Source of the DNA: Burkholderiales bacterium
Lineage (GTDB): Bacteria > Pseudomonadota > Gammaproteobacteria > Burkholderiales > Burkholderiaceae_C
NCBI GenBank assembly: GCA_947453625.1
Contig: CANGHK010000032.1
Span: 1 to 61,956 of the forward strand
Direction: 5' to 3'
DNA length: 61,956 nt
In this document: one piece after another, positions 1,077-15,079 of the stretch
Position numbering within the stretch: position 1 is the first letter of the stretch
How the letters are laid out: every line of letters starts with the position of its first letter
Notes under the pieces: generated by a model
What the model was told of the DNA's origin: nothing
Databases searched by the model: none
The model's input: the letters and a program-made list of their open reading frames with translations, nothing else
Position numbers and translations under genes: made by a program

Positions 1077-1655
1077 TCAGGTGCTCAACAACTCGGCGCA
1101 GTGGGCGATGAAGGGCTGGATCTTCTTGCGGCACTGCGACAGGTATTCCTTGGTGGCCGCGACGCTGCGCCCGATCTGCAGCCCGATCGCGTCGATGCGC
1201 AGGCCATCCATCTGCAGCGTCAGCGCATAGGCACGGTCGGGCATCTGGCTGCCGAAGTCGGCCAGACCGGCCGCCACGCAGTCGTCCACCGTCCCGCCGA
1301 AGTGGCAGGCCGCCGGGGCCGCGGTGGACTCGCCCAGCGCCACCCAGCGCGCGTCATCGACCGCCACTTCGCGCTGGGCCAGACGCGCGCGCCGGCCCAG
1401 GAAATCCAGCAGGCAGTTGCGCGCGATCTGCCAGATCCAGGCCTTGGCCGGGCCGCCGCCCTGGAAGGTGGCGGCATTGCGGACGATCTTGACCAGGCTG
1501 TCCTGCAGGATGTCCTTGGCCTCGTCGCTGCTCGCGCCCTGGTGGACGAAGAAGCGCAGCATGGCCTGGGCCTGGCCCTGGTACAGCGCCTTGACCGCCG
1601 CGTCGCGCGGCTTGCCGCCGACCACGATGGCCTGGATGATGTCTTCTTCCTGCAT
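1077..1655 (-). CDS. ECF-type RNA polymerase sigma factor
   Basis: A 192-residue sigma-70 family protein with region 2 at about 18-85 (DILQDSLVKI, then WIWQIARNCLLDFL, the -10 recognition and core-binding helices) and region 4 at about 130-175 (a helix-turn-helix with IGRSVAATKEYLSQC). It should direct transcription of a small regulon under control of the membrane protein encoded next. The linker between regions 2 and 4 and the tail carry four cysteines (ACHFGG, DDCV, SQCRK, AHCAE), more than most ECF factors have. The start is the ATG at 1653-1655. It lies 82 bp behind a LuxR-type response regulator and may be read with it. Target genes cannot be told from the window. Confidence 0.85.
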   Translation of the reverse strand: MQEEDIIQAIVVGGKPRDAAVKALYQGQAQAMLRFFVHQGASSDEAKDILQDSLVKIVRNAATFQGGGPAKAWIWQIARNCLLDFLGRRARLAQREVAVDDARWVALGESTAAPAACHFGGTVDDCVAAGLADFGSQMPDRAYALTLQMDGLRIDAIGLQIGRSVAATKEYLSQCRKKIQPFIAHCAELLST

Positions 1656-1737: not shown

Positions 1738-2760
1738 TCATCCCCGCACCGGCCCCAGCAAGCGCCCGACCCGGTTGAGCACCAGCCCGGCCGCCGCGGT
1801 GCGGGTCTCGACGCCCAGCTTGGGCAGGATGTGCTCCATGTGCTTGGTCACCGTGCGCGGGCTCAGGCCCAGGATGTCGCCGATGTCGCGGTTGGTCTTG
1901 CCACGCGCCACCCAGTGCAACACCTCGGCCTCGCGCGCGGTCAGGCGGAAGGCTGCCATCATGGCCTCGATCACCGCGGCGTCATTGGCCTCGCTGGCGA
2001 CGATCAGCCACTCTTCGTCCTGGCCGGGCTCGTTGGCCAGCCCGCCAGGCGCGCCGGCTTCGTCGCCGGACTCCATCGGGTGAAGCTCCAGCGTCAGCCT
2101 GCGCCCGCCCCGCGCGGTGACCCAGGGCTGCGCGATGCCGCCGGCCCGGCGCGCGGCGGCCTCGCGCCGCACCCAGTCGATCAGCGGCACCGGCGCGGCG
2201 CTGCCTTCGCTGCCGAAATAGTCGCGCAACAGGGAGCGCGCCAGCGCGGTCTGCCACAGCAGGCGGCCGTCGGCGGGCCGCACCACCAGCGTGGCATGGC
2301 CGAAGGCGTCGAGCGCGTTGCGCGCCTGGCGCTGCACTCTTGCGGTCTGGGTGTGGGCGGCGATGCGCGCCAGCACCTCGCGCGGCTGTATCGGCTTGGT
2401 GACATAGTCGACGCCGCCGGCGGCAAACGCCGCCACCACATGCTCGGTCTCGGTCAGCGCGGTCATGAAGACGATGGGGATGGACGCGGTGTCGGTGCCG
2501 GCTTTCAGGCAGCGCGCCACCTCGAAGCCGTCCATGCCCGGCATCATCGCGTCGAGCAGCACGATGGCAGGCCGGGCCTGGCGGGCACGCGCGATCGCGC
2601 TCGGCCCGTCGGTGGCCACCAGCACGGTGTAGCCGGCCTCGTCCAGCGCGTCGTGCAGCAGCGACAGGTTGTCGGGCATGTCGTCGACGATCAGCACCAC
2701 ATCGCCGCCGGCCTGGGACAGCGGCGCGGGCGTGGCGTGGATCAAGCGGTCAGAGGACAT
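1738..2760 (-). CDS. Response regulator: receiver, linker domain and LuxR-type HTH
   Basis: A 340-residue regulator. The receiver domain (about 20-135) has the acidic pair VDD at 25-27, phospho-acceptor Asp70 in LLDAMMPGMDG and the conserved Lys in TKPI. A middle part (about 145-255) looks like a degenerate PAS-type domain. The C-terminal LuxR helix-turn-helix (about 270-335) has the family pattern LTAREAEVL...GKTNRDIG...SPRTVTKHMEHI. Its start codon lies inside the end of the upstream hybrid histidine kinase gene (11-bp overlap), so the two are translationally coupled and the kinase is the obvious partner. It should bind DNA on phosphorylation. Targets are unknown; the downstream ECF sigma gene and the urease genes are candidates by position only. 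Confidence 0.9.
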   Translation of the reverse strand: MSSDRLIHATPAPLSQAGGDVVLIVDDMPDNLSLLHDALDEAGYTVLVATDGPSAIARARQARPAIVLLDAMMPGMDGFEVARCLKAGTDTASIPIVFMTALTETEHVVAAFAAGGVDYVTKPIQPREVLARIAAHTQTARVQRQARNALDAFGHATLVVRPADGRLLWQTALARSLLRDYFGSEGSAAPVPLIDWVRREAAARRAGGIAQPWVTARGGRRLTLELHPMESGDEAGAPGGLANEPGQDEEWLIVASEANDAAVIEAMMAAFRLTAREAEVLHWVARGKTNRDIGDILGLSPRTVTKHMEHILPKLGVETRTAAAGLVLNRVGRLLGPVRG

Positions 2761-5700
2761 CGGGCGGTTCGGTCGGACGGTCGACTGCAGGCGTCAAGTC
2801 GCTTGCGGGCAGGGCGGCCGCGTCGGCCAGCGCCGATTGGACCAGATGGGCCAGAGTGTCGAGTTGGAAGCCTCGCGCCAGACCGCGCAGCCGGCCGACG
2901 AAATCGGCGCTCGCCGGGTGCTCGGCCTCGATCGTATCGAGCTTGCGCTGGATGCCACGCAGATAGCCCAGTCGCACCAGTTCGTCGAGCGCGCGCAAGG
3001 CCTCGACCGGCGGGGCCGGCATCGCGCTGACCGGCTCGACACGGCTGGCCAGCGCGTCCGGCCCGGCGTCCAGCCACTGCAGGTCCAGCCGCCGCTGCAG
3101 CCAGCCCAGCAACTCGGCCATGCGCACCGGCTTGACCAGGAAATCCTGCGGCGCGATGCCCAGACCGTTGTCCAGCCCCTTGTCGAAGGCGTTGGCCGAG
3201 ACGATGGCCACCGGCAGCCCGCCCAGGCCCTGGCCGCGCAGCCTGGCCAGCGTGGTCCAGCCGTCGATGCCGGGCATCGCCAGGTCGAGGAACAGCGCGT
3301 CGACCGGCTGGTCGCGCAGCAGCGGCAGCGCCTCCTCGCCCGAGGCCGCCTGCAGCAGTTCGAAGCCCAGCGGCGCCAGCCGGTCGACCAGCAGCCGGCG
3401 GTCGGCCTCCTCGTTGTCGACGACCAGCAGACGGCGGCGCGGGCCGGCATAACCGATGGGGCGCAGCGCCGGGCGGCGCTCGCGCGGGCTGGCGCGCGCC
3501 TGCAACTCGGGCAGGTAGAGCTTGACCGCAAAGCAACTGCCCACGCCGGGGCGGCTGCTCACCGTCAGTTCGCCGCCCATCAGGCCGGTGAGCATGCGGG
3601 CGATGGTCAGCCCCAGTCCGGTGCCGCTGCTGGCGTTGCCGCCGGCGGCCGTGCCGCGAACAAAGGGCTCGAAGACCCGGGCCAGTTCGGTCTCGGCCAT
3701 GCCAGGGCCGGTGTCCTCGACCTCGAAATAAGCCATCTCGCGCGCATAGTCGACCGAGAAGCTCACCTGACCGGCGCGGGTGAACTTCACCGCATTGCCC
3801 AGCAGGTTGATCAGGATCTGGCGCAGCCGCTTCTCGTCGGCGCGCACCAGGTCGGGCAGCGTGCCGGTGCGGCGGTGGACGAAGCGCAAGCCCCTGGCCT
3901 CGGCCTGCGCCTCGAACAGCCGCACCAGCTCGTCCATCGCGTCGGCGAAATGCAGGGGCGCCGATTCGAGCGTCAGGCGGCCGCTCTCGATCTTGGCGAT
4001 GTCCAGCGTGCCCTCGATCAGGCTGAGCAGGTGGTCGCCGCCGCGCCGTATCACCTGCACCGCGCCGCGCCGGTGCGCCGGGATCGCCGGGTCGTCCTCC
4101 AGCAGCTGGGCATAACCCAGGATGCTGTTGAGCGGCGTTCGCAGCTCGTGGCTGATGGCGGTGATGTAGCGGCTCTTGGCCTGGTTGGCGGCGTCGGCGC
4201 TGGCCATCGCCAGCTGCAACTGGACATCGGTGCGCTGGTGCGATTCGATCTCGCGTCCCAGCGCGACGGCCTGGCTCTGCAAGACCCCGGCCTGCTCATG
4301 CAGGGCCTGGGTCTGGCGGCGCGATTCCTCCTGCGCGCGCTGGCGGCTGCGCTGGGCCAGCACTGCCCACCAGGCCACCATGCCGGCGATAAGCAGCAGC
4401 ACCGCGAAGGCCTGGCCGAAGCCGGCGCGCAGCAGCGGCGCCACCGCGGCGGCGCTGATCGCGTCGAGCTGGCCCAGCGAGCGCAGCCCCAGGCGGTACA
4501 AGGCCCAGAACAGCAGCGCCAGCCCAGACACCACCGCGCCCATCAGCAGCAAATAGGCCGACAGGCCGTTCTCCAGTTGCGGCGCCATCCGCCGCGGCAG
4601 CAGGCGCTGCAGCAGGCCCAGCCACTGCACGGCCAGCCTGGCCTGGGGCTTGCACAAGTCGTCGCAGCGCACATCCAGCGTGCAGCACAGCGAGCAGATC
4701 AGCCCGCCATAGGCCGGGCAGGCGGCCATGTCCTCGGCCTCGTAGTCGCGCTCGCAGACCGTGCAGCGGTGCAGGGCCTGGCTGCCCAGGTAAGCGCCCT
4801 GCCCGGCGGCGTCCCGGGCTGACTCGGCCGCCGCGACCGCCTGTGCCGCCGGCGTGCGACTGGCCAGGTAGTAGCGGCCACGCGTGGCCCAGGCAATCAG
4901 CGGCGAGACCACCAGCGCGGCCACCAGCGCGATCATGGCCGAGAAGGCCTGGGCCAGCGCGCCAAACGCGCCCAGGTGCGCGGCCACGCTGAGCACCGAG
5001 GCCATGCCCATCGCGCCCACGCCCACCGGGTTGACGTCGTAGAGGTGGGCGCGACGGAACTCTATGCCCTTGGGGCTCAGCCCCAGCAGCTTGTTGATCA
5101 CCAGGTCGGCCACCACCGCCATGATCCAGGCGATCGCGATGTTGCTGTACAGGCCCAGCACATGGCTGAGCGCCTGGAACACGTTCAACTCCATCAGCAC
5201 CAGCGCGATGCCGGTGTTGAACACCACCCAGACCACCCGGCCAGGGTGGCTGTGCGTCAGGCGCGAGAAGAAGTTGCTCCAGGCCAGCGAGCCGGCGTAG
5301 GCGTTGGTGACGTTGATCTTGAGTTGCGACACCAGCACGAACAGCGCGGTGGCGGCCACCGCCCAACCGTAATGCGGGAAGACATATTCCCAAGCCGCCA
5401 GGTACATCTGGTTGGGGTCGACCGCGCGCTCGGGCGGCACGCTGTGGGCCAGCGCCAGGTAGGCCAGCAGCACGCCGGCCATCATCTTGGCCACGCCGAC
5501 GAGCACCCAGCCCGGGCCGCCCATCAGGGTGCCCAGCCACCAGCGCGCGGCATGGCCGGGCCGCTGTTCGGGCATGAAGCGCAGGTAATCGGCCTGCTCG
5601 CCCATCTGGGTGACCAGCGCGATGCCCACCGTCAGCGCGGCACCGAAACCCAGCAGGTCGAAGCCCGGGCTGTTGCCCGTGACGCCGGCAAAACCGGTCA

Positions 5701-6334
5701 AGCCGGCCAGCTCGTCCGGACTCTTGACCAGCACGGTGACCAGCGGCAACACCAGCAGACCCAGCCACAGCGGCTGGGTCCAGACCTGCAGCCGGCTGAT
5801 CGCCGTCACGCCGTGGCTGACCAGCGGGATCACCACCAGCGCGCACAAGCCGTAACCCCAGGCCGGCGGGATGTCGAAGGCGAGTTCCAGCGCGTAGGCC
5901 ATCACCGCGGCCTCGAGCGCGAAGAACAGGAAGGTGAAGCTGGCGTAGATCAACGAGGTGATGGTCGAGCCGAGGTAGCCGAAGCCGGCGCCGCGCGTCA
6001 GCAAGTCCATGTCGAGGCCGTGGCGCGCGGCGTAGACGCTGATCGGCAGCCCGGCCAGGAAGATGATCAGCCCAGTGGCCAGGATCGCCAGCGTGGCGTT
6101 GACGAAGCCATGCTGCACCAGCAGGGTGGCACCCACCGCCTCCAGGATCAGGAAGGCGGCGGCGCCGAAGGCGGTGTTGGCCACCCGCCATTCGCTCCAC
6201 TTGCGGAAGTTGCGCGGCGCAAAGCGCAGCGCGTAGTCCTCCATCGTCTCGCTGGCCACCCAGCGGTTGTAGTCACGGCGGAAGGTGAGCACCTGCTGAG
6301 GCGGCGTGCGCGGTGGGGCCGGTGGGCTGGACAT
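2750..6334 (-). CDS. Hybrid histidine kinase fused to an NCS1-type nucleobase/hydantoin permease
   Basis: A 1194-residue membrane protein that joins a whole transporter to a kinase. Residues about 20-490 form a twelve-helix permease of the NCS1 type (cytosine, purine, allantoin, hydantoin). About 524-561 is a cytoplasmic patch with eight cysteines. Two further membrane helices lie at about 592-612 and 640-662, then a short coiled coil. The HisKA helix carries His729 (ISHELRTPLNSILGY), the ATPase domain has LLGNAVKFT, DTGPGM and GTGLGLTIARM, and a receiver has Asp1017 (LFLDLAMPGIDG). A helical tail of about 100 residues ends the protein. All catalytic motifs look intact. By analogy with CbrA, a sodium/solute-transporter-type sensor kinase, it probably senses or imports its ligand and phosphorylates the overlapping response regulator. 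The ATG at 6332-6334 is preferred over a TTG two codons upstream. The ligand is unknown. Confidence 0.88.
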   Translation of the reverse strand: MSSPPAPPRTPPQQVLTFRRDYNRWVASETMEDYALRFAPRNFRKWSEWRVANTAFGAAAFLILEAVGATLLVQHGFVNATLAILATGLIIFLAGLPISVYAARHGLDMDLLTRGAGFGYLGSTITSLIYASFTFLFFALEAAVMAYALELAFDIPPAWGYGLCALVVIPLVSHGVTAISRLQVWTQPLWLGLLVLPLVTVLVKSPDELAGLTGFAGVTGNSPGFDLLGFGAALTVGIALVTQMGEQADYLRFMPEQRPGHAARWWLGTLMGGPGWVLVGVAKMMAGVLLAYLALAHSVPPERAVDPNQMYLAAWEYVFPHYGWAVAATALFVLVSQLKINVTNAYAGSLAWSNFFSRLTHSHPGRVVWVVFNTGIALVLMELNVFQALSHVLGLYSNIAIAWIMAVVADLVINKLLGLSPKGIEFRRAHLYDVNPVGVGAMGMASVLSVAAHLGAFGALAQAFSAMIALVAALVVSPLIAWATRGRYYLASRTPAAQAVAAAESARDAAGQGAYLGSQALHRCTVCERDYEAEDMAACPAYGGLICSLCCTLDVRCDDLCKPQARLAVQWLGLLQRLLPRRMAPQLENGLSAYLLLMGAVVSGLALLFWALYRLGLRSLGQLDAISAAAVAPLLRAGFGQAFAVLLLIAGMVAWWAVLAQRSRQRAQEESRRQTQALHEQAGVLQSQAVALGREIESHQRTDVQLQLAMASADAANQAKSRYITAISHELRTPLNSILGYAQLLEDDPAIPAHRRGAVQVIRRGGDHLLSLIEGTLDIAKIESGRLTLESAPLHFADAMDELVRLFEAQAEARGLRFVHRRTGTLPDLVRADEKRLRQILINLLGNAVKFTRAGQVSFSVDYAREMAYFEVEDTGPGMAETELARVFEPFVRGTAAGGNASSGTGLGLTIARMLTGLMGGELTVSSRPGVGSCFAVKLYLPELQARASPRERRPALRPIGYAGPRRRLLVVDNEEADRRLLVDRLAPLGFELLQAASGEEALPLLRDQPVDALFLDLAMPGIDGWTTLARLRGQGLGGLPVAIVSANAFDKGLDNGLGIAPQDFLVKPVRMAELLGWLQRRLDLQWLDAGPDALASRVEPVSAMPAPPVEALRALDELVRLGYLRGIQRKLDTIEAEHPASADFVGRLRGLARGFQLDTLAHLVQSALADAAALPASDLTPAVDRPTEPPDVL

Positions 6335-6464
6335 GCCCAAGCATGCATCAAGAACCGCACCAGCGCCGAGCGGCGGACGGCCGGCAGGTCAGGCACCACA
6401 ACGGCGCATGCAGAACCGGCGGCAGCCGCCAACCCGCCCTACCAACAGCACTCACGCCCCAAGA

Positions 6465-8603
6465 TCATGCCTGCGGCAGCACCGCCCGCACTGCGTCGCG
6501 GCCGCCGTGCTTGGCCTCGTACAGTGCTTGGTCGGCACGCGCCAGCACCGCGTCGAGGTTGACATCGGCCGGCGCGATGACGCTGATGCCCACGCTGACC
6601 GTCACGGCGATCTGCTCGCTGCCTTGCTGTGTCGGGTTCTGCGCCACGAGTTCACGCAGGCGCTCACCCAGCACCTGGGCCTCTTCGGCGCCGGTGTCGG
6701 GCAGCAGCAGGGCGAACTCTTCACCGCCGCTGCGCGCCACCAGGTCGTTGTGGCGGGTGGTCTGCTGCATCAGCCGGGCCACATGGCGCAGCACCGCATC
6801 GCCCGCCGCATGGCCCCAGGTGTCGTTGACCTGCTTGAAGTGGTCCAGGTCGACCGACATCACGCTGCAGCGAACGTCAGGGTGGCGCAGCACGCGGTCG
6901 AGCTCGATCTGCATCCGGTCCATCAGGCCGCGCCGGTTGGCCACGCCGGTCAGAAAGTCGGTTCTGGCCTGGTGGTGTAGTTCACGGCTCATCAGCACAC
7001 GCTCGGTGATGTCCTCGAAGAGCGCGTACACCTGCTGCAACTCGCCGTTGCGGAACAACGGCGTGGCATTGACCAGCAACCAGGCACGGCCACGGCCGGG
7101 AACGATCACGCTCATCAGCACATCCTTGACCGGCACGCCGGTGCGCAGCGCCACCATCGCCGGCTGCTGGTCGCCGGGGAAGTCGCTGCCGTCCTCACGC
7201 AGCGCCTGCCAGCGCGCGTCTATCGACGCCAGGCCTTGCAACTGCTCGATCGTCAGCCCCAGGATGCGCTGCGCCGCCGGGTTGGCCGAGGTGATGCGGC
7301 CCTGCGCGTCCTGGTAGACCACGCCCTGCGGCACGGTCTCGAACAAGGTGCGGTACTTGTCCTCGCTGGCCTTGAGGACAGCCTCCATCTGCTTGCGCTG
7401 CGACACATCGGCCAGCATCCCGGTCCAGACCGTGTCGCCGCCCTCACCGTGCTTGGGTTTGGCCAGCACATGCACCCACTTGACCCGGCCGCTGCGGGTC
7501 TGGATTCGGTATTCATGCTCCCACGGCAGATGCTGGGCGACGGCGCGCTGCAACGAGGCGTCGTGCGCTGGCTTGTCGGCTGGCAGGATGCACTGGCCCA
7601 GCGCGTGGATGTCGTCGCAGGCCTGCTCGGGCGTCAGCTCGAACAAGGCCTCTATGCCGGGGCTGAAGTAGGTGAATTGCCAGAAGGCCTGTGCGGAGTG
7701 CCGCAGGCGGAACATCGCGCCGGGAATGGACGCGGCCATGTCCTGCAACTCGGCCTCGCTGCGGCGCAAGGTCTCCTGGGCCAGTATCAGCGGCGAGACG
7801 TTGTCGTGCGCCACCACGACGCGCACCGGATCACTGCCCGGAATGCGCGCGACCCGCGCCACGAACCAGCGCTGCTCGTCGGCCGAATGGCAGGGGTATT
7901 CCATCTGGAAATGTTGCCGCTGGCCGGCCAACACCTCGGCCAGCAACACACCGAAGGCGGTGAGGGCCTCGACCGCGGGCCCATGGGCATCGGCAGGTGA
8001 CTGGCACACGGCGGTGTAGCTGGCGCCCTCGTGCACCTGGCTGGCGACCGCGCCGTTGGCGGTGGCAAAGTCGCGCCAGGCCTGGTTGACGGCCAGGATC
8101 GTGCCCTGTTCGTCCAGCACGCAGACATGGGCCGTCAGCGCGTCGAGCACCGAGTTGAGGAAGCGGCCCGAGGCTTGCAGCGCCAGTTCAACCCGCCGTC
8201 GATCGGTGATGTCGAGCACGTAGACCAGTCGCAACGGCCGGCCTTGAGCGCCGGGAAGCCGGGTGGATTCGGCCAGTATCGTCAGCAGCCGGCCGTCGCG
8301 CCGCAGCACGTCGAACTCACCCTTCAACGCGGTGCCCTCCTGCAAGAAGGCCTGGTGGCCGGCCAGCACCCGGGCGTGTTGCTCCGGCGGAAATACCATC
8401 GTGAAGGGCTGGCCCAGCATCTCTTGTCGGGCATAGCCGTACAACGTGGCGTAGGCCGGATTGACGTCGACGTAGAGGCCCTCGCTGTCGATCACGGCGA
8501 TGCCGATAGGCGAATGGGCGATGACTTGGTCGAGCAGCGCCGAACTGCCGGCGACCGCCGGGACGATCGCCACTTGATCCACGGACCCCATGTCTTCGAC
8601 CAT
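6465..8603 (-). CDS. Diguanylate cyclase with four PAS domains
   Basis: A 712-residue cytoplasmic protein with four tandem PAS/PAC modules at about 15-140, 150-285, 290-410 and 415-540, then a GGDEF domain (about 550-710) that makes cyclic di-GMP from two GTP. The active-site motif is SGGEEF. An RxxD sequence (RHND) lies exactly five residues before it, the position of the inhibitory I-site, so product inhibition is expected. There is no EAL or HD-GYP domain and no membrane helix. The ATG at 8601-8603 (MVEDMGS) is preferred because the 24 in-frame residues upstream of it are Arg-rich and unlike protein. It lies 130 bp upstream of the permease-kinase gene on the same strand. The PAS ligands are unknown. 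Confidence 0.88.
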   Translation of the reverse strand: MVEDMGSVDQVAIVPAVAGSSALLDQVIAHSPIGIAVIDSEGLYVDVNPAYATLYGYARQEMLGQPFTMVFPPEQHARVLAGHQAFLQEGTALKGEFDVLRRDGRLLTILAESTRLPGAQGRPLRLVYVLDITDRRRVELALQASGRFLNSVLDALTAHVCVLDEQGTILAVNQAWRDFATANGAVASQVHEGASYTAVCQSPADAHGPAVEALTAFGVLLAEVLAGQRQHFQMEYPCHSADEQRWFVARVARIPGSDPVRVVVAHDNVSPLILAQETLRRSEAELQDMAASIPGAMFRLRHSAQAFWQFTYFSPGIEALFELTPEQACDDIHALGQCILPADKPAHDASLQRAVAQHLPWEHEYRIQTRSGRVKWVHVLAKPKHGEGGDTVWTGMLADVSQRKQMEAVLKASEDKYRTLFETVPQGVVYQDAQGRITSANPAAQRILGLTIEQLQGLASIDARWQALREDGSDFPGDQQPAMVALRTGVPVKDVLMSVIVPGRGRAWLLVNATPLFRNGELQQVYALFEDITERVLMSRELHHQARTDFLTGVANRRGLMDRMQIELDRVLRHPDVRCSVMSVDLDHFKQVNDTWGHAAGDAVLRHVARLMQQTTRHNDLVARSGGEEFALLLPDTGAEEAQVLGERLRELVAQNPTQQGSEQIAVTVSVGISVIAPADVNLDAVLARADQALYEAKHGGRDAVRAVLPQA

Positions 8604-8861
8604 GCGCGTGGCATCGCCTTGTCGGCAACGCGCCCTCCGGCGGTGGCTGCATTGACCCGATGGGCCGCTCGGCACAACCGCTGAGCGCCCGATTCTGCGG
8701 GCGGGGACTTGCTTTTTCTTGCGTCAGAACAAGAATTTTGCCGATCTCGTCACCGGCGGACGACAGCCGATGGGCTGTTGCGGCGCGTCGCGCCGCAACA
8801 GCCCGACGAGTGTCGCCCCGGCCCGCTGACGGTCGGCATCGGCCGGCCGCCCGGACCCAGA
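8604..8861. other. Intergenic region with a strong hairpin
   Basis: A gap of 258 bp between the start of the diguanylate cyclase gene and the end of the serine hydrolase gene. Apart from the hairpin at 8772-8804, nothing recognisable was seen. It should hold the promoter of the minus-strand signalling genes, but no clear -35/-10 pair stands out. Confidence 0.5.
8772..8804 (-). terminator. Perfect 14-bp hairpin behind the serine hydrolase gene
   Basis: The arms 8772-8785 and 8791-8804 are exactly complementary over 14 bp around a five-base loop (CGTCG). It lies about 58 bp past the stop of the minus-strand serine hydrolase gene. No T-run follows on either strand, so it is either a Rho-dependent end that the hairpin protects from exonucleases or a non-canonical terminator. 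Confidence 0.45.
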
Positions 8862-10187
8862 TCAGTCGGCGATGGCCTGCGACACCAGGTCCTTCATCGC
8901 CCGGCGGTAGAAGGCGCGCAGCGGGCTGGGCGCCTGGGTCATGTAGACCGCGCAGATCTGCTCCTTGGGTTCGGCCCAGAAGAAGGTGCCGGCATAGCCC
9001 GCCCACATGAACTCGCCGGCCGTGCCATGCACACCGGCGATGCCGTCGCCTTGGCGCACCATGAAGCCCAGGCCGAAGGTATAGCCCGGAACGCCCATCA
9101 GCAGCGCGCCGGGGTTGACAGGCGCGGCCGCCAGCACCGGGCCGAGGTGGTCGGCGGTCATCAGTTGCACCGTGCTGCGCGACAGGATGCGCGCCCCGTC
9201 GAGTTGCCCGCCGTTGAGCATGGCCTGGCAGTAACGCAGGTAATCGCCCGCGGTGCTGACGCCGCCGGCGCCGCCCGAGTCGTTGCCGGGGGTCTGGCTC
9301 ATGTCGAGCAGTTTGTTGTCGACCCCGGTGGCCGGGTCTTTCGGGAAGGCCTCGGCCAGCCGCGCGGCCTTGGCTGAGGGCACCGAGAAGCCGCTATCGA
9401 CCATCTTGAGCGGGTTGAACAGGCGCTGCTGCAGGAAATCGCCCAGGCGCTGGCCAGACACCGCCTCGACCACCCGGCCCTGCACGTCGACCGACAGGCT
9501 GTACTCCCAGGCCGTGCCGGGCTGTTGCGCCAGCGGCGCCTTGCCCAGGCCGTCGGCCATCTCGGCGCCCGACAGCGTGCGGGCGTCGTAGTCGAGGGTG
9601 GGCTTGAACACGCCGGCTTTGATGTAGGCCTCGCGCACCAGCGTGTTCTTGGTCAGTTCGCCATAGGCCAGGCCCGAGGTGTGGCGCAGCAAGTCCTGGA
9701 TCGTCGGCTCGCGGTTGGCCGGCACCAGCTTGAAGGCGACGCCGCCGAAAACCGGGTCGAAGGTCGGCGCACTGACCATCGGGTTCTTGAACGAAGGCAG
9801 GAACTTGCTGATCGGGTCGGTCAGCTGAACTTTGCCGTCCTCGACCAGCATCATCAGCCCGGTCGAGGCCAGCGGCTTGGTCATCGAGTAGATGCGGAAG
9901 ATCGAGTCGGCCGCCATCGCGCCGCCGCTGGCGTTGTTCAGGCTGCCGAAGGCCTTCGAATAGACCAGCTTGCCCTTGCGCGCCACCATCAGCACCGCGC
10001 CCGGCAGCTTCTTGTCGGTGATTTCCTTCTCGAACACCGTGGTCAGCTTGGCGAGCCGCTCGGACGACATGCCCACGCTTTCGGGCTGGGCCGTGGGCAG
10101 GGGTTGGGCCAGCGTGGCGCTGGCGGCCAGCGCCGCGACGGCGGCCAGCAGGGTGGGCAGGAGCTTGAATCGGTGCGGGGTGGTCAT
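8862..10187 (-). CDS. Secreted serine hydrolase of the class C beta-lactamase / family VIII esterase fold
   Basis: A 441-residue protein with a clear signal peptide (about 1-27: Arg/Lys, a hydrophobic core rich in Leu and Ala, then ATLAQ), so it should be periplasmic or secreted. The nucleophile motif SxxK is present as SMTK in FRIYSMTKPLA. HTSGLAYGE follows, a Tyr-Ser-Leu takes the place of the YxN box, and a WAGYAGTFFW segment replaces the KTG box, as in family VIII esterases such as EstB. It probably hydrolyses esters or D-amino-acid peptides rather than acting as a drug-resistance enzyme. An ATG four codons upstream (10199) is an alternative start. It is divergent from the urease operon. 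Confidence 0.85.
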   Translation of the reverse strand: MTTPHRFKLLPTLLAAVAALAASATLAQPLPTAQPESVGMSSERLAKLTTVFEKEITDKKLPGAVLMVARKGKLVYSKAFGSLNNASGGAMAADSIFRIYSMTKPLASTGLMMLVEDGKVQLTDPISKFLPSFKNPMVSAPTFDPVFGGVAFKLVPANREPTIQDLLRHTSGLAYGELTKNTLVREAYIKAGVFKPTLDYDARTLSGAEMADGLGKAPLAQQPGTAWEYSLSVDVQGRVVEAVSGQRLGDFLQQRLFNPLKMVDSGFSVPSAKAARLAEAFPKDPATGVDNKLLDMSQTPGNDSGGAGGVSTAGDYLRYCQAMLNGGQLDGARILSRSTVQLMTADHLGPVLAAAPVNPGALLMGVPGYTFGLGFMVRQGDGIAGVHGTAGEFMWAGYAGTFFWAEPKEQICAVYMTQAPSPLRAFYRRAMKDLVSQAIAD

Positions 10188-10387
10188 GGCGGGTGTCATC
10201 TCCGGGTATCTTGTGGTGGCTGAAGTGAGCGGCAGTGCCGCAGCAGTCATGCTGCCCGAAATCCAGCCGCTGGCCAGCAGGGCTTTCACCGCCGGGTACG
10301 CGTCAAGGCCGCCACCCAGGGAACCCCGACCCGACAACACGGGGCGGCCTGGTTACGATGGCACCGATCCTGCAACCAGCGACGCCC
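10188..10387. promoter_or_regulatory. Divergent control region, serine hydrolase / urease operon
   Basis: 200 bp between two divergent start codons, so it must hold the promoters of both, including that of the urease operon. No convincing -35/-10 pair, NtrC/sigma-54 (GG-N10-GC) promoter or operator palindrome was picked out by eye. Confidence 0.5.
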
Positions 10388-10690
10388 ATGGAACTGACAC
10401 CACGCGAAAAAGACAAGCTGCTGATCTTCACCGCCTCGCTGCTGGCCGAGCGCCGCAAAGCCCGCGGCCTGAAGCTCAACTACCCCGAGGCGGTGGCGCT
10501 GATCAGCGCAGCGATCATGGAGGGCGCGCGCGACGGCAAGTCGGTGGCGGCCTTGATGAGCGACGGCAAGACCGTGCTGACGCGCGACGACGTGATGGAC
10601 GGCATCGCCGAGCTGATCCCGGAAATCCAGGTCGAGGCCACCTTTCCGGATGGCACCAAACTGGTGACCGTGCACCAACCCATCGCCTGA
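10388..10690 (+). CDS. ureA: Urease gamma subunit
   Basis: A 100-residue protein, exactly the usual UreA length. It begins [10 protein letters not shown] and contains the family segments [11 protein letters not shown] and [19 protein letters not shown] at the C-terminus. With UreB and UreC it forms the (alpha-beta-gamma)3 enzyme that hydrolyses urea to ammonia and carbamate in the cytoplasm. It is the first gene of the operon. The ATG at 10388 was chosen because it gives the standard N-terminus; the open frame upstream is noncoding. Confidence 0.98.
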
Positions 10691-10698
10691 AACGCACC

Positions 10699-10869
10699 AT
10701 GAAGAAACATTTGACGATCTCGGCCTTGATGGTCGGCGCCGGACTGGTCCAGGCTCACGAAGGCCATGGCCTGCCCGGCAGCCTGCACTGGCATAGCGAC
10801 GACGCGCTGGTGCTGATCGCGCTGGCCGCGGTGGCCGCCACCGGCCTGTGGCTGGCGCGCCGCAAGTGA
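10699..10869 (+). CDS. Small His-rich membrane peptide inside the urease operon
   Basis: A 56-residue protein read between ureA and ureB, 8 bp from each. An N-terminal hydrophobic signal (about 1-19, [20 protein letters not shown]) is followed by a short His-rich stretch (HEGHG, then SLHWHSDD) and a second hydrophobic helix (about 37-52) that ends in LARRK. The layout suggests a periplasmic metal-binding loop anchored in the inner membrane, or exposed after signal cleavage. Position and histidines suggest a part in nickel handling for urease, but no known family was recognised and the role is inferred. It has the GC content and codon choice of its neighbours. Confidence 0.75.
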
Positions 10870-10877
10870 GCAAAACC

Positions 10878-11183
10878 ATGAATCCTGGCGAACTGTTGAT
10901 TGACGCGGGCGAGCATGCCCTGAACCCCGGCCGGCGTGGAGTCACGCTGGTGGTGCAGAACACCGGCGACCGGCCGATCCAGGTCGGCTCGCATTACCAC
11001 TTCGCCGAGACCAACGCCGCGCTGCAGTTCGACCGCGACGCGGCGCGCGGCATGCGGCTGAACATCGCCTCGGGCACGGCGGTGCGTTTCGAGCCCGGCC
11101 AGCAGCGCACGGTCGACCTGGTGGACTACGCCGGCGCGCGCGAAGTCTGGGGTTTCAGGGCCCAGATTCAAGGAAAACTGTAA
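10878..11183 (+). CDS. ureB: Urease beta subunit
   Basis: A 101-residue protein with the typical start MNPGELL and the conserved segments [29 protein letters not shown] and [17 protein letters not shown]. Structural subunit that packs around UreC near the active-site flap. Its TAA stop overlaps the ureC ATG (TAATG), which points to coupled translation. Confidence 0.98.
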
Positions 11184-12910
11184 TGGCAACGATTGGACGG
11201 CGTGCCTACGCCGAGATGTACGGCCCGACGGTGGGCGACCGGGTGCGGCTGGCCGACACCGCCTTGGTCATCGAGGTCGAGGATGACTTCACGCTGCGCG
11301 CTGGCGGCTACGGCGAGGAAGTCAAGTTCGGCGGCGGCAAGACCATACGCGACGGCATGGGCCAGAGCCAGGTGCCCAACGGCCCGGGCGCCCACGAGGC
11401 TGCCGACCTGGTGATCACCAACGCGCTGATCATCGACCACTGGGGCATCGTCAAGGCCGACATCGGCATCAAGCGTCACCGCATCGTCGCAATCGGCAAG
11501 GCCGGCAACCCCGACGTGCAGCCTGGCGTGGACATCGTGATCGGCCCCGGCACCGAGATCCTGTCGGCCGAGGGCATGATCGTCACCGCCGGCGGCATAG
11601 ACACCCACATCCACTTCATCTGCCCGCAGCAGATCGAAGAGTCGCTGATGTCGGGCATCACGACGATGATGGGTGGTGGCACCGGGCCGGCCACCGGCAC
11701 CTTCGCCACCACCTGCACGCCCGGGCCAGAAAGCCTGCGCTTCATGCTGCAGGCGGCCGAGGCCTTTCCGATGAACCTGGGCTTTCTGGGCAAGGGCAAC
11801 GCCAGCCGGCCCGAGGCGCTGCGCCAGCAGGTGGAGGCGGGCGCGGTCGGCCTCAAGCTGCACGAGGACTGGGGCACGACGCCGGCGGCGATCGACAACT
11901 GCCTGAGCGTGGCCGAAGAGCATGACGTGCAGGTCTCGATCCACAGCGACACGCTGAACGAATCGGGCTTCGTCGAGAACACGGTGGCCGCCACCCAGGG
12001 CCGCACGCTGTGCGCCTTCCACACCGAGGGCGCCGGCGGCGGCCATGCGCCCGACATCATGCGGGTGGTGGGCGAGCCCAACTTCCTGCCCTCGTCGACC
12101 AATCCGACGATGCCCTACACCGTCAACACAGTGGACGAGCACCTGGACATGCTGATGGTCTGCCACCACCTGGACGCCAGCGTGGCCGAGGACCTGGCCT
12201 TCGCCGAAAGCCGGATCCGGCGCGAGACCATCGCCGCCGAGGACGTGCTGCACGACCTGGGCGCGATCAGCATGTTCTCCAGCGACAGCCAGGCCATGGG
12301 CCGGGTCGGCGAGGTGATCATCCGCTGCTGGCAGACGGCGCACAAGATGAAGGGCCAGCGCGGTGGCCTGCCCGGCGACACCGCGCGCCACGACAACGCC
12401 CGCGTCAAGCGCTACATCGCCAAGCTGACGATCAACCCGGCGCTCAGCCACGGCATAGCGCATGAGGTGGGGTCGATAGAGCCGGGCAAATGGGCCGACC
12501 TGGTGTTGTGGAAGCCGGCCTTCTTCGGCGTCAAGCCCAGCGTGGTGCTCAAGGGCGGCTTCATCGCGGCGGCGGCGATGGGCGACCCGAACGCCAGCAT
12601 CCCGACGCCGCAACCGGTGCATTACCGGCCGATGTTCGCCAGCTACGGCAAAGCGCTGGGCAGCACCTCGATCAGCTTCGTCAGCGGCGCCAGCCTGGCC
12701 AACGGCGCGGTCCAATCGTACGGCCTGGCCAAGCGCCTGGTGGCGGTCAAGGGCAACCGCAGCGTCAAGAAGGCCGACATGGTGCACAACCATTACCTGC
12801 CGCGGATGGAGATCGACGCCCAGACCTACGAGGTGCGCGCCGACGGCCTGCTGCTGACCTGCGAGCCCGCCAGCGAACTGCCGATGGCACAGAGGTACTT
12901 TTTGTTTTAG
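11183..12910 (+). CDS. ureC: Urease alpha (catalytic) subunit
   Basis: A 575-residue amidohydrolase, the usual UreC length. All nickel ligands can be placed: His142 and His144 (THIHFICP), carbamylated Lys225 ([11 protein letters not shown]), His254 (SIHSDTLNE), His280 ([14 protein letters not shown]) and Asp368 (SSDSQAMGR). The flap cysteine and catalytic histidine are Cys327 and His328 (VCHHLD). It should be an active enzyme once loaded with two Ni2+ and CO2 by the accessory proteins. Start at the ATG that overlaps the ureB stop. Confidence 0.99.
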
Positions 12911-12984
12911 CCGGCGGTCGGGCTTGGGGCGGCGGCGGCCTGTCAGCGCGCTTCCAACCCCACCACTCAGGCCACAATCGACCC

Positions 12985-13623
12985 ATGCTGACCATCAACA
13001 AGCTCATCCCCGGCGGCCGCGGCCTGGCCCCGGTGCTCATCAAGCGTGCGGCCCAGGTCGAACTCGACTGGGACGTGCGGCAAAAAAGCCGCTTCGACGC
13101 CACCGACTCACTGGGACGCCTGCTGGGCGTGTTCCTGCCGCGCGGCACCACAGCGCGTGGCGGCGACATGCTGGTGGCCGAGGACGGCTCGCTGATCCGC
13201 GTGCTGGCCGCCCCGCAGGCGGTGCTGGTGGTGCGCGCCTGCGCCACGCATGGCACGCCCTTCGACCTGCTGCGCGCCGCCTACCACCTGGGTAACCGCC
13301 ATGTCGCGTTGGAACTTCAGCCCGACCACCTCAAGCTCGAACCCGACCATGTGCTGGCCGACATGCTGCGCCAGCAGCACCTGATCGTGACCGAATCCCA
13401 CGAGGCCTTCGAACCCGAAGGCGGGGCTTATGCCAGCGCCGGGGCCGGCCACGGCCACGGCCACGGCCATGACCATGGGCACGAACAGGCGCACGAGCAC
13501 GCGCCGGCTGCGGCGCGACCGATAGCCATTGCGGTGGTGGCGGCAGCACCGGCGCATGGACATGCTCATGGGCATGTCCACGGGCCGGATTGCGGCCACG
13601 ACCACGGCCACCACGGCCACTGA
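12985..13623 (+). CDS. ureE: Urease nickel metallochaperone with a long His tail
   Basis: A 212-residue protein. About 1-150 is the standard UreE fold (peptide-binding domain, then the metal-binding domain with LGNRHVALEL and DHVLADMLR). The last 60 residues form a tail with 18 histidines in two blocks (GHGHGHGHDHGHEQAHEH, and the final stretch ending DHGHHGH) joined by an Ala/Val/Pro linker. Such tails bind and store several Ni2+ ions per dimer. UreE hands nickel to UreG for urease activation. The ATG at 12985 gives the usual MLTINK-type start. Confidence 0.97.
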   Translation: MLTINKLIPGGRGLAPVLIKRAAQVELDWDVRQKSRFDATDSLGRLLGVFLPRGTTARGGDMLVAEDGSLIRVLAAPQAVLVVRACATHGTPFDLLRAAYHLGNRHVALELQPDHLKLEPDHVLADMLRQQHLIVTESHEAFEPEGGAYASAGAGHGHGHGHDHGHEQAHEHAPAAARPIAIAVVAAAPAHGHAHGHVHGPDCGHDHGHHGH

Positions 13624-13629
13624 GCGGCG

Positions 13630-14352
13630 ATGCCCCGCGTGCGGCAAGCGGCGCAGCCGTTGCCTGCTCCGGCCCTGCTGCAACTGATGTGGCTGGCCTC
13701 GCCGGCGCTGCCGGTGGGCGGTTTCAGCTACTCCGAGGGCCTGGAGGCGGCGATAGACGGCGGCCAGGTCGGCGACGAGGCCAGCGCCGGCCGCTGGCTG
13801 GTCGACCAACTGGGCTTGAGCCTGCAGCGCGCCGAGTTGCCGCTGCTGGCCAGCGCCTTCAAGGCCTGGCAGCGCCACGACGCGCCGCGCATCGCCGAGC
13901 TCAACGCCTGGGCGCTGCAGACCCGAGAGACCCGCGAGATGCGTCAGCAGACCGAGCAGATGGGCCGCTCGCTGACCGACTGGCTGCGCCAGCGCCAGCC
14001 CGACGACGTGCGCATCCACGTCCTGGCCGCGCTGCGGCCCGCGCCGACCTGGCCGATCGCGTTCGCGCTGGCTGCAGCCACCATCACCGGTGCACCGCTG
14101 CGCGAAGCGCTGCTGGCCTTTGGCTTCGGCTGGGCCGAGAACATGGTGCAGGCGCTGCTGAAATCGGCCCACCTGGGCCAGAGCGCGGGCCAGCGCCTGC
14201 TGGGCCGGTTGGCCGACGCGCTGCCCGCCGCAGTGGACGCAGCCCTGGCCACCGCGCTGGCCGGCGACGGCGCGCGCCAGAACCTGGCGCCCATGCTGGC
14301 CATCCTGTCGGCCCGGCATGAAGCGCAGTACTCCCGCTTGTTCAGAAGCTGA
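13630..14352 (+). CDS. ureF: Urease accessory protein F
   Basis: A 240-residue all-helical protein with the family signature [21 protein letters not shown] at about 20-40 and [11 protein letters not shown] further on. UreF is part of the activation complex, normally UreD-UreF-UreG bound to apo-urease, and gates GTP hydrolysis by UreG. It lies 6 bp behind ureE. Confidence 0.96.
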
Positions 14353-14422
14353 ACCCGAACGGGGCCACGCGCTGCGGCATGATCGCTGCTTGTAGCCCTC
14401 CTCCGCCCCAAGAAAGCCCGCC

Positions 14423-15079
14423 ATGACCGCGCTGCACGCCATCCCCCGCCGCACCAAGAAACTCCCCCCATTGCGCGTCGGCGTGGGCGGACCGGTGGGG
14501 TCGGGCAAGACCACGCTGGTCGAAATGCTGTGCAAGACCATGCGCGACCGCTGGGACCTGGTGGTGGTGACCAACGACATCTACACCAAGGAAGACCAGC
14601 GCCTGCTCACCGTGGCCGGCGCGCTGGCGCCCGAGCGCATCATGGGCGTGGAGACCGGCGGCTGCCCGCACACCGCGATCCGCGAGGACGCGTCGATCAA
14701 CCTCGAGGCGGTGGACCGGATGCTGGAAAAATTCCCGGACGCCGACATCGTCTTCATCGAGTCGGGCGGCGACAACCTGGCCGCCACCTTCAGCCCCGAA
14801 CTCAGCGACCTGACGATCTACGTCATCGACGTCGCCGCCGGCGAGAAGATCCCGCGCAAGGGTGGCCCCGGCATCACCAAGAGCGACCTGTTCGTGATCA
14901 ACAAGATAGACCTCGCGCCCTATGTCGGCGCCAGCCTGGAGGTGATGGAAACCGACACCCGCCGGATGCGGCCAGACCATGCCGGCAAGCGGCCTTATGT
15001 GATGACCAACCTGCGCACCCGCCAGGGTCTGGCCGAGGTGGTGGCCTACATCGAGCGCAAGGGCTTGCTGGTGGACTGA
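14423..15079 (+). CDS. ureG: Urease accessory GTPase
   Basis: A 218-residue SIMIBI-class GTPase with P-loop [11 protein letters not shown] (about 27-37), [10 protein letters not shown], the nickel-binding CPH in [15 protein letters not shown], the Walker B-like IESGGDNL, and NKIDLAP for guanine recognition. GTP hydrolysis drives nickel insertion into UreC. It follows ureF after 70 bp. Confidence 0.98.

Follow-up and report, generated by a model that had tools for sequence, protein, structure and literature searches.

A widespread hybrid sensor kinase with an NCS1-like domain and its genetic link to urea and short-chain amide genes

The window analysed here, the whole 61,956-nucleotide stretch of Burkholderiales bacterium contig CANGHK010000032.1, encodes on its reverse strand a hybrid sensor kinase that begins with a transporter-like domain, together with its LuxR-type response regulator (Table 1). 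Gene neighbours, stand-alone relatives of the sensor domain (twins) and a recurrent DNA palindrome point to a receptor for urea and short-chain amides that drives urt-encoded uptake through a palindrome-binding regulator, and this mechanism as a whole appears probable. In it, a membrane receptor derived from an NCS1-type permease would bind urea, formamide or acetamide, and a Cys-rich module and two helices would join the permease-like domain to the hybrid histidine kinase. Ligand occupancy would be passed via the Cys module and a long helix to the kinase, and the kinase's receiver, perhaps together with an unlinked HPt, would relay phosphate to the LuxR/NarL-type regulator. The latter would bind TACG-N8-CGTA upstream of urtA, and often also of the kinase or a twin permease, and would turn on urea and amide uptake. 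In the clade of the window, the kinase gene stands beside urease, with the predicted binding site at a urt operon located elsewhere in the genome (contig C6).

The kinase frame opens with ATG at 6334, with an in-frame TTG also at 6340, and its product is arranged in the order NCS1-like domain, Cys module, two membrane helices, long helix, HisKA-HATPase and receiver. HisKA, HATPase_c and Response_reg score above the Pfam cut-offs, and the H, N, G1 and G2 boxes and the receiver motif are all present. The Cys module follows the permease-like part and precedes the two extra helices, which extend over residues 581-620 and from 625 onward in the AlphaFold model. As a single chain that combines a transporter fold with a kinase whose motifs are intact, the protein is a transporter-fused sensor kinase of the transceptor type, and the receiver and LuxR-type helix-turn-helix of the regulator, both matched in Pfam, fit a two-component system of the NarL/FixJ type. 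The first-pass annotation had already described a transporter-type sensor kinase encoded by one frame of 1194 codons that overlaps the LuxR-type regulator gene by 11 bp, with an intact HisKA-ATPase-receiver module, an extra cysteine patch and two more helices, and all of these stand. Its description of a full NCS1-type permease holds for the fold and not for the Pfam family: among the domains proposed for a Pfam check, HisKA, HATPase_c and Response_reg were found, and Transp_cyt_pur (PF02133) was not.

On model and profile evidence the first ~500 residues are a diverged NCS1-like domain, because the AlphaFold model matches Mhp1 and CodB in Foldseek and the sensor profile matches canonical NCS1 proteins. 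The model, which covers residues 1-720 and was built from an alignment of 79 sequences (the window protein and 78 relatives), has a mean pLDDT of 82.2 and a pTM of 0.79, with residues 9-36 below 50. The five top Foldseek matches in the PDB are Mhp1 and CodB entries, with sialic-acid symporter, Nramp and LAT-type structures ranking below them. A profile of 43 sensors aligned to one of four canonical NCS1 proteins reaches 98.1% probability (hhalign), and a stand-alone relative from K. pneumoniae, 43% identical to the sensor domain, passes PF02133 with 38.1 bits (cut-off 23.5). The same Pfam family was not detected in the window protein (E up to 10), in any of the 43 aligned members (E up to 1) or anywhere in the window's own genome, and PDB sequence searches with the sensor profile or the stand-alone relatives returned no NCS1 entry. 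An ordinary Pfam NCS1 permease is ruled out by this silence of PF02133 on the window protein and the 43 members. A kinase of the SLC5/STAC type is also ruled out, as no SSF or STAC family matches at E up to 10 and NCS1 structures outrank those of SLC5. The helix-3 Trp and Gln of canonical NCS1 proteins, which we take to be the ring-stacking residues in Mhp1, align to Phe137 and Glu141 of the window protein, and the helix-8 Ser-Thr pair, presumably Na-site residues, aligns to Lys339-Ile340.

Gene neighbourhoods were surveyed in the DNA surrounding the kinases (stretches of at most 20 kb) by a tblastn-type search, with references from annotated plasmid loci and fixed identity limits; the counted genes were urtA, ureA/ureC, fmdA and amiE, nucleobase genes lying outside the search. 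Such genes stand near the kinase in 76/86 loci of the order and phylum samples (window included; weak or fragmentary matches and the stand-alone relatives L150-L153 left out). The next-best kinases of the same genomes served as controls: none of their 20 loci had a counted gene, and the ABC-transporter matches to UrtB-E present in four of them are generic (26-43% identity). The counts are 8/15 in a class sample, 66/80 in named loci (the best 80 of at least 597, leaning to Burkholderiales) and 7/7 in hand-picked plasmid loci. A matching response regulator is present in 76 of the 86 loci. The annotation had noted the urease genes nearby and proposed both a link to urea nitrogen and a survey of gene neighbours for nitrogen functions; the survey bears out the link, in the form of urea and amide uptake and hydrolysis. 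In a quick tree of 92 sensors, for which the program warns of long branches, neighbour types cluster (16 changes vs 32.1 in shuffles), and the window kinase falls in a group of eight rows, all with urease genes nearby, at modest support (86).

Judged from gene order, the placement of the twins gives the strongest hint to the ligand. They share about 42-51% identity with the sensor parts, and urease, formamidase or amidase genes are found close to 8 of the 12 aligned twins. The K. pneumoniae twin (L061:9941-11548), annotated as a cytosine permease, adjoins and follows ureDABCEFG; a gammaproteobacterial twin (L256, G840) follows urease genes, and that of Acinetobacter ursingii (L299:7959-9566) precedes ureEFGJDABC. 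Twins are found near fmdA in Moraxella osloensis (L301:7914-9557) and Tsukamurella (L303), and the Arthrobacter U41 twin (L304:7941-9617) precedes amiE, near acs. Two others accompany family kinases: the G826 twin (L257) and its kinase neighbour are divergently oriented, with fmdA, fmdB and amiE following the twin, and in Methylovirgula (L064) the twin lies downstream of the kinase and regulator genes, flanked on both sides by formamidase and amidase genes. A twin can therefore take the place held elsewhere by the urt transporter. Several twins are annotated as allantoin or cytosine permeases and others as hypothetical; from their surroundings, the proteins so labelled in L061, L299, L301 and L304 are likely urea/amide permeases, a new group that extends to K. 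pneumoniae and Acinetobacter.

Sensors and twins appear to share the binding region, since 43 sensors and 12 twins have 59 invariant positions in common, including the polar residues E141, Q243, Q247, K339, N341 and N344. The twins differ from the sensors in having no kinase, in helix 1 and, mostly, in having fewer Cys. In helix 1 the sensors carry F61 (170/173), L64 (166/173) and E65 (172/173), whereas all 12 twins have Y61, D64 and F or Q65, none with Glu65. The eight Cys form a full set in 173/173 sensors and in two of the 12 twins, the remaining ten having fewer; two twins that adjoin kinases keep all eight. Receptor and permease would thus form a pair differing at few helix-1 positions, which makes the change from transporter to receptor open to residue swapping. 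A broader proposal can be offered only tentatively: the helix-1 change (Asp64 to Leu, Phe/Gln65 to Glu) in an unrecognised NCS1 urea/amide permease clade may have produced a portable, non-transporting receptor with an eight-Cys coupling module and varied outputs (histidine kinase (HK)-receiver, HK-receiver-HPt, PAS-kinase and PAS-GGDEF-EAL), the kinases of which might control urea/amide uptake across Proteobacteria via one palindrome.

This palindrome emerged from a dyad count over 119 non-redundant kinase upstream regions, in which TACG-N8-CGTA occurs in 36, vs 0.2 in shuffles; the common full form is ATACGTCA-N2-TGACGTA(T/C/G). A 7-2-7 inverted layout is known for the sites of NarL-type regulators, and by sequence count a palindrome of this spacing is enriched at urtA. 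The 188 family loci (3.60 Mb) contain 124 palindrome sites, 111 of them in the 118 kb upstream of counted genes (within 300 bp of the kinase, urtA, ureA, fmdA or amiE start), a ~250-fold enrichment. The palindrome stands upstream of 84/101 urtA and 51/192 kinase genes, and is absent from the 20 control loci (397 kb). Because the motif was derived from kinase upstream regions, the counts at urtA genes divergent from the kinase are not independent. More independent tests are provided by the urtA genes of kinase-free genomes and by remote urtA genes, for which up to 720 bases upstream were fetched. In kinase-free genomes the palindrome occurs at 0/18 urtA genes (2/20 stretches being too short), and in kinase genomes at 7/20 other urtA genes. 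All seven belong to genomes of the window's own family in which the kinase is urease-linked, the window's own genome included; five lie on a different contig or at least 38 kb from the kinase, and two (G545, G435) lie less than 10 kb from it, in loci already counted. In the window's own genome (G000), the palindrome CATACGACAGATGGCGTATG is located upstream of a remote urtA on contig C6 (L325:181-200), the predicted target of the regulator. This genome has three family members: the third paralogue (L095) carries the palindrome upstream of its kinase, and none was found at the second (L089).

Several observations weigh against a urea/amide receptor that acts through this site. No copy of the palindrome was found in the window, its own kinase promoter included, and 13/20 other urtA genes in kinase genomes are without it; these 13 belong to genomes of other families, in which the kinase lies beside its own amide-type urtA (that of G226 is itself a second amide-type copy). 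Upstream of ureA the palindrome is absent (0/86), and it is rare at fmdA (8/57) and amiE (1/29), so urease may be under sigma-54 control instead. No counted gene was found in 10/86, 7/15 and 14/80 loci of the order and phylum, class and named samples, respectively, some owing to contig ends. Among the ten, five lie less than 5 kb from a contig end (L067, L078, L080, L124, L149), L071 has urease accessory genes, and the kinase stands apart in L066, L098, L100 and L095. Likewise, 4/12 twin stretches (L060, L298, L300, L302) have no counted urea/amide gene; a family kinase gene with a regulator lies divergently to the A. baumannii twin in L298. Finally, in CbrA, the nearest fusion to have been studied, the transporter domain takes up histidine, yet the kinase activities are reported to be unaltered by histidine (PMC7096432).

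A sigma-54-like element is found in 54/86 ureA upstream regions, window included (shuffle mean 1.15), with a post hoc pattern written after viewing examples. The first sigma-54 pattern performed no better than shuffles on the ureA upstream regions (7 vs 12.0), and a dyad search for a ureA-specific palindrome gave no clear motif, its words seeming to stem mostly from the coding sequence of the kinase where the stretches overlap. Because of the sigma-54-like elements at ureA, the kinase may control uptake, with urease under general nitrogen control. Both the CbrA precedent and the sigma-54-dependent look of these ureA promoters also speak for a sensor of nitrogen status or of a metabolite, in which the kinase would respond to an internal signal and the permease-like domain would serve only for transport or anchoring. 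This is unlikely, however, as the sensor part is somewhat better conserved than the kinase core (for example, 68% vs 58% in G111 and 53% vs 47% in G407), and the same permease-Cys module is also joined to another output, PAS-GGDEF-EAL, which suggests that the module is the input.

A metal or redox sensor, in which the eight-Cys module binds Zn, Ni or an Fe-S cluster as the true input, would be in keeping with the invariance of the eight Cys in sensors, with their incomplete set in 10/12 twins and with the Ni requirement of urease. It is nevertheless quite improbable: the two kinase-adjoining twins keep all eight Cys, and 54/86 loci have urt, formamidase or amidase genes in the stretch but lack ureA there, so Ni does not link the loci. 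Least probable is a sensor of ring compounds (purines, allantoin, hydantoin or uracil), with urease handling the released urea, as the first-pass annotation had proposed: NCS1 family substrates are such rings, the fold matches Mhp1 and CodB and some twins are annotated as allantoin or cytosine permeases, but the neighbours, the eight twins beside urease, formamidase or amidase genes and the shared DNA site point to urea and amides, and the canonical helix-3 Trp/Gln align to Phe/Glu. As far as sequence allows, urea or short-chain amides are far more likely than rings to be the signal, and in place of the purine/allantoin-to-urea route suggested earlier the predicted direct target is a urt operon.

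UreR and NtrC regulate urease genes, and to our knowledge neither form of control involves a transporter-type membrane sensor. Nor do we know of any description of a membrane sensor that detects external urea or amides and acts upstream of urt genes; the urea/amide receptor proposed here would supply a candidate sensor, regulator and DNA site for their control. No characterised family member was found in the open-access literature, which omits most subscription journals, in line with the annotation, which knew of none with this transporter class. Among known systems, CbrA of Pseudomonas (an SLC5-STAC-PAS histidine kinase) is similar in fusing a LeuT-fold transporter to a histidine kinase. It differs in its SLC5, STAC and PAS domains and its partner CbrB, where the window system has an NCS1-like domain, a Cys module, a hybrid receiver, a LuxR-type regulator and a urea/amide neighbourhood. 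With Lys339/Ile340 at the presumed NCS1 Na site, the window protein also resembles CbrA in not keeping the Na-site Ser/Thr of its family; according to the accessible part of the source, CbrA is without the conserved PutP Na-site Ser/Thr and its transport seems proton driven (PMC7096432). The structure of the CbrA SLC5-STAC part is known (PMC13022988, accessible part). CrbS/R, which responds to acetate, likewise has a transporter-like hybrid kinase (PMC5715377, accessible part), but CrbS has SLC5 and STAC domains, a different ligand and a different target gene. Mhp1 and CodB share the NCS1 permease fold, being the top PDB matches of the window domain, but have no kinase, and the window domain is unseen by PF02133.

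Published genomes hold related gene arrangements, cited here from the accessible parts of each source. In Klebsiella CG307, urt and formamidase genes are discussed as a urea transport system, and the text makes no use of the words sensor, histidine kinase or two-component (PMC13060141). The position of urtABCDE beside formamidase genes led to the suggestion, from neighbourhood, that the transporter may take up formamide (PMC13209695). A histidine kinase and regulator, possibly of this family, are listed without interpretation beside urt genes in single genomes (PMC2907700, PMC13296017). RdsA (PMC9022086), as described there, was considered and showed no link.

The family is widespread in Proteobacteria. 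Matches, weak ones included, occur in 38/200 genomes of an evenly drawn order sample and in 61/398 of a phylum sample, and a scan of named genomes gave at least 597 stretches with a match. Among plasmid records 538 match, of which 504 cover at least 80% of the query and 342 are from Klebsiella. In the order and phylum samples the sensor parts of strong matches are mostly 47-72% identical to that of the window, and with the kinase core alone as query the top match is a family member in 40/40 genomes. The input module also precedes other outputs, namely HK-receiver-HPt (L098), HK with two receivers and HPt (L100), PAS-PAS-HK-receiver (L271), a receiver-less kinase (L260) and PAS-GGDEF-EAL (L258), and all five loci are without counted urea/amide genes. 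In the last of these (L258:6849-10520) the neighbours resemble, by eye, CbbR and RuBisCO-cluster genes, and its role is perhaps different.

Table 1. Features of the window discussed in the text, with their coordinates and basis.
Feature	Position	Strand	Basis
Cognate response regulator gene: receiver and LuxR/NarL-type helix-turn-helix (GerE)	1738..2760	-	Pfam; 11-bp overlap with kinase gene
Hybrid sensor kinase gene, 1194 aa	2750..6334	-	Open frame and domain matches
C-terminal receiver; phospho-acceptor Asp1017 by motif	3107..3427	-	Pfam, alignment
HATPase_c domain	3512..3838	-	Pfam
HisKA domain; box SHELRTPLN at residue 728; phospho-acceptor His729 by motif	3980..4180	-	Pfam, alignment
Two extra long helices, residues 581-660, taken as membrane helices	4355..4594	-	AlphaFold secondary structure
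Eight-cysteine module C-x2-C-x11-C-x7-C-x2-CC-x5-C-x3-C, residues 524-561	4652..4765	-	Invariant in 173/173 aligned sensors
NCS1-like (LeuT-fold) sensor domain, residues 17-498	4841..6286	-	Foldseek to Mhp1/CodB, profile match, 43-sequence alignment
Helix-1 signature FLILE, residues 61-65, separating sensors from twins	6140..6154	-	Alignment
PAS-GGDEF gene (6465-8675) and beta-lactamase-fold hydrolase gene (8862-10340), between kinase and ureA	6465..10340	-	Domain search
Sigma-54-like -24/-12 element GGCACCGATCCTGC upstream of ureA	10360..10373	+	Pattern match
Urease genes ureA (10388), ureB, ureC (11183-12910), ureE, ureF, ureG	10388..15079	+	tblastn; Urease_gamma match

Kinase and ureA are encoded on opposite strands in 73 loci, and in 65 of these less than 1.2 kb separates the two starts; the distance is 4.06 kb in the window. 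Most relatives with divergent kinase and ureA leave no room for the PAS-GGDEF gene found here at 6465-8675 (-). Downstream of the regulator gene, at 1077-1655 (-), lies an ECF-type sigma factor-like gene, in which only Sigma70_r2 was matched.

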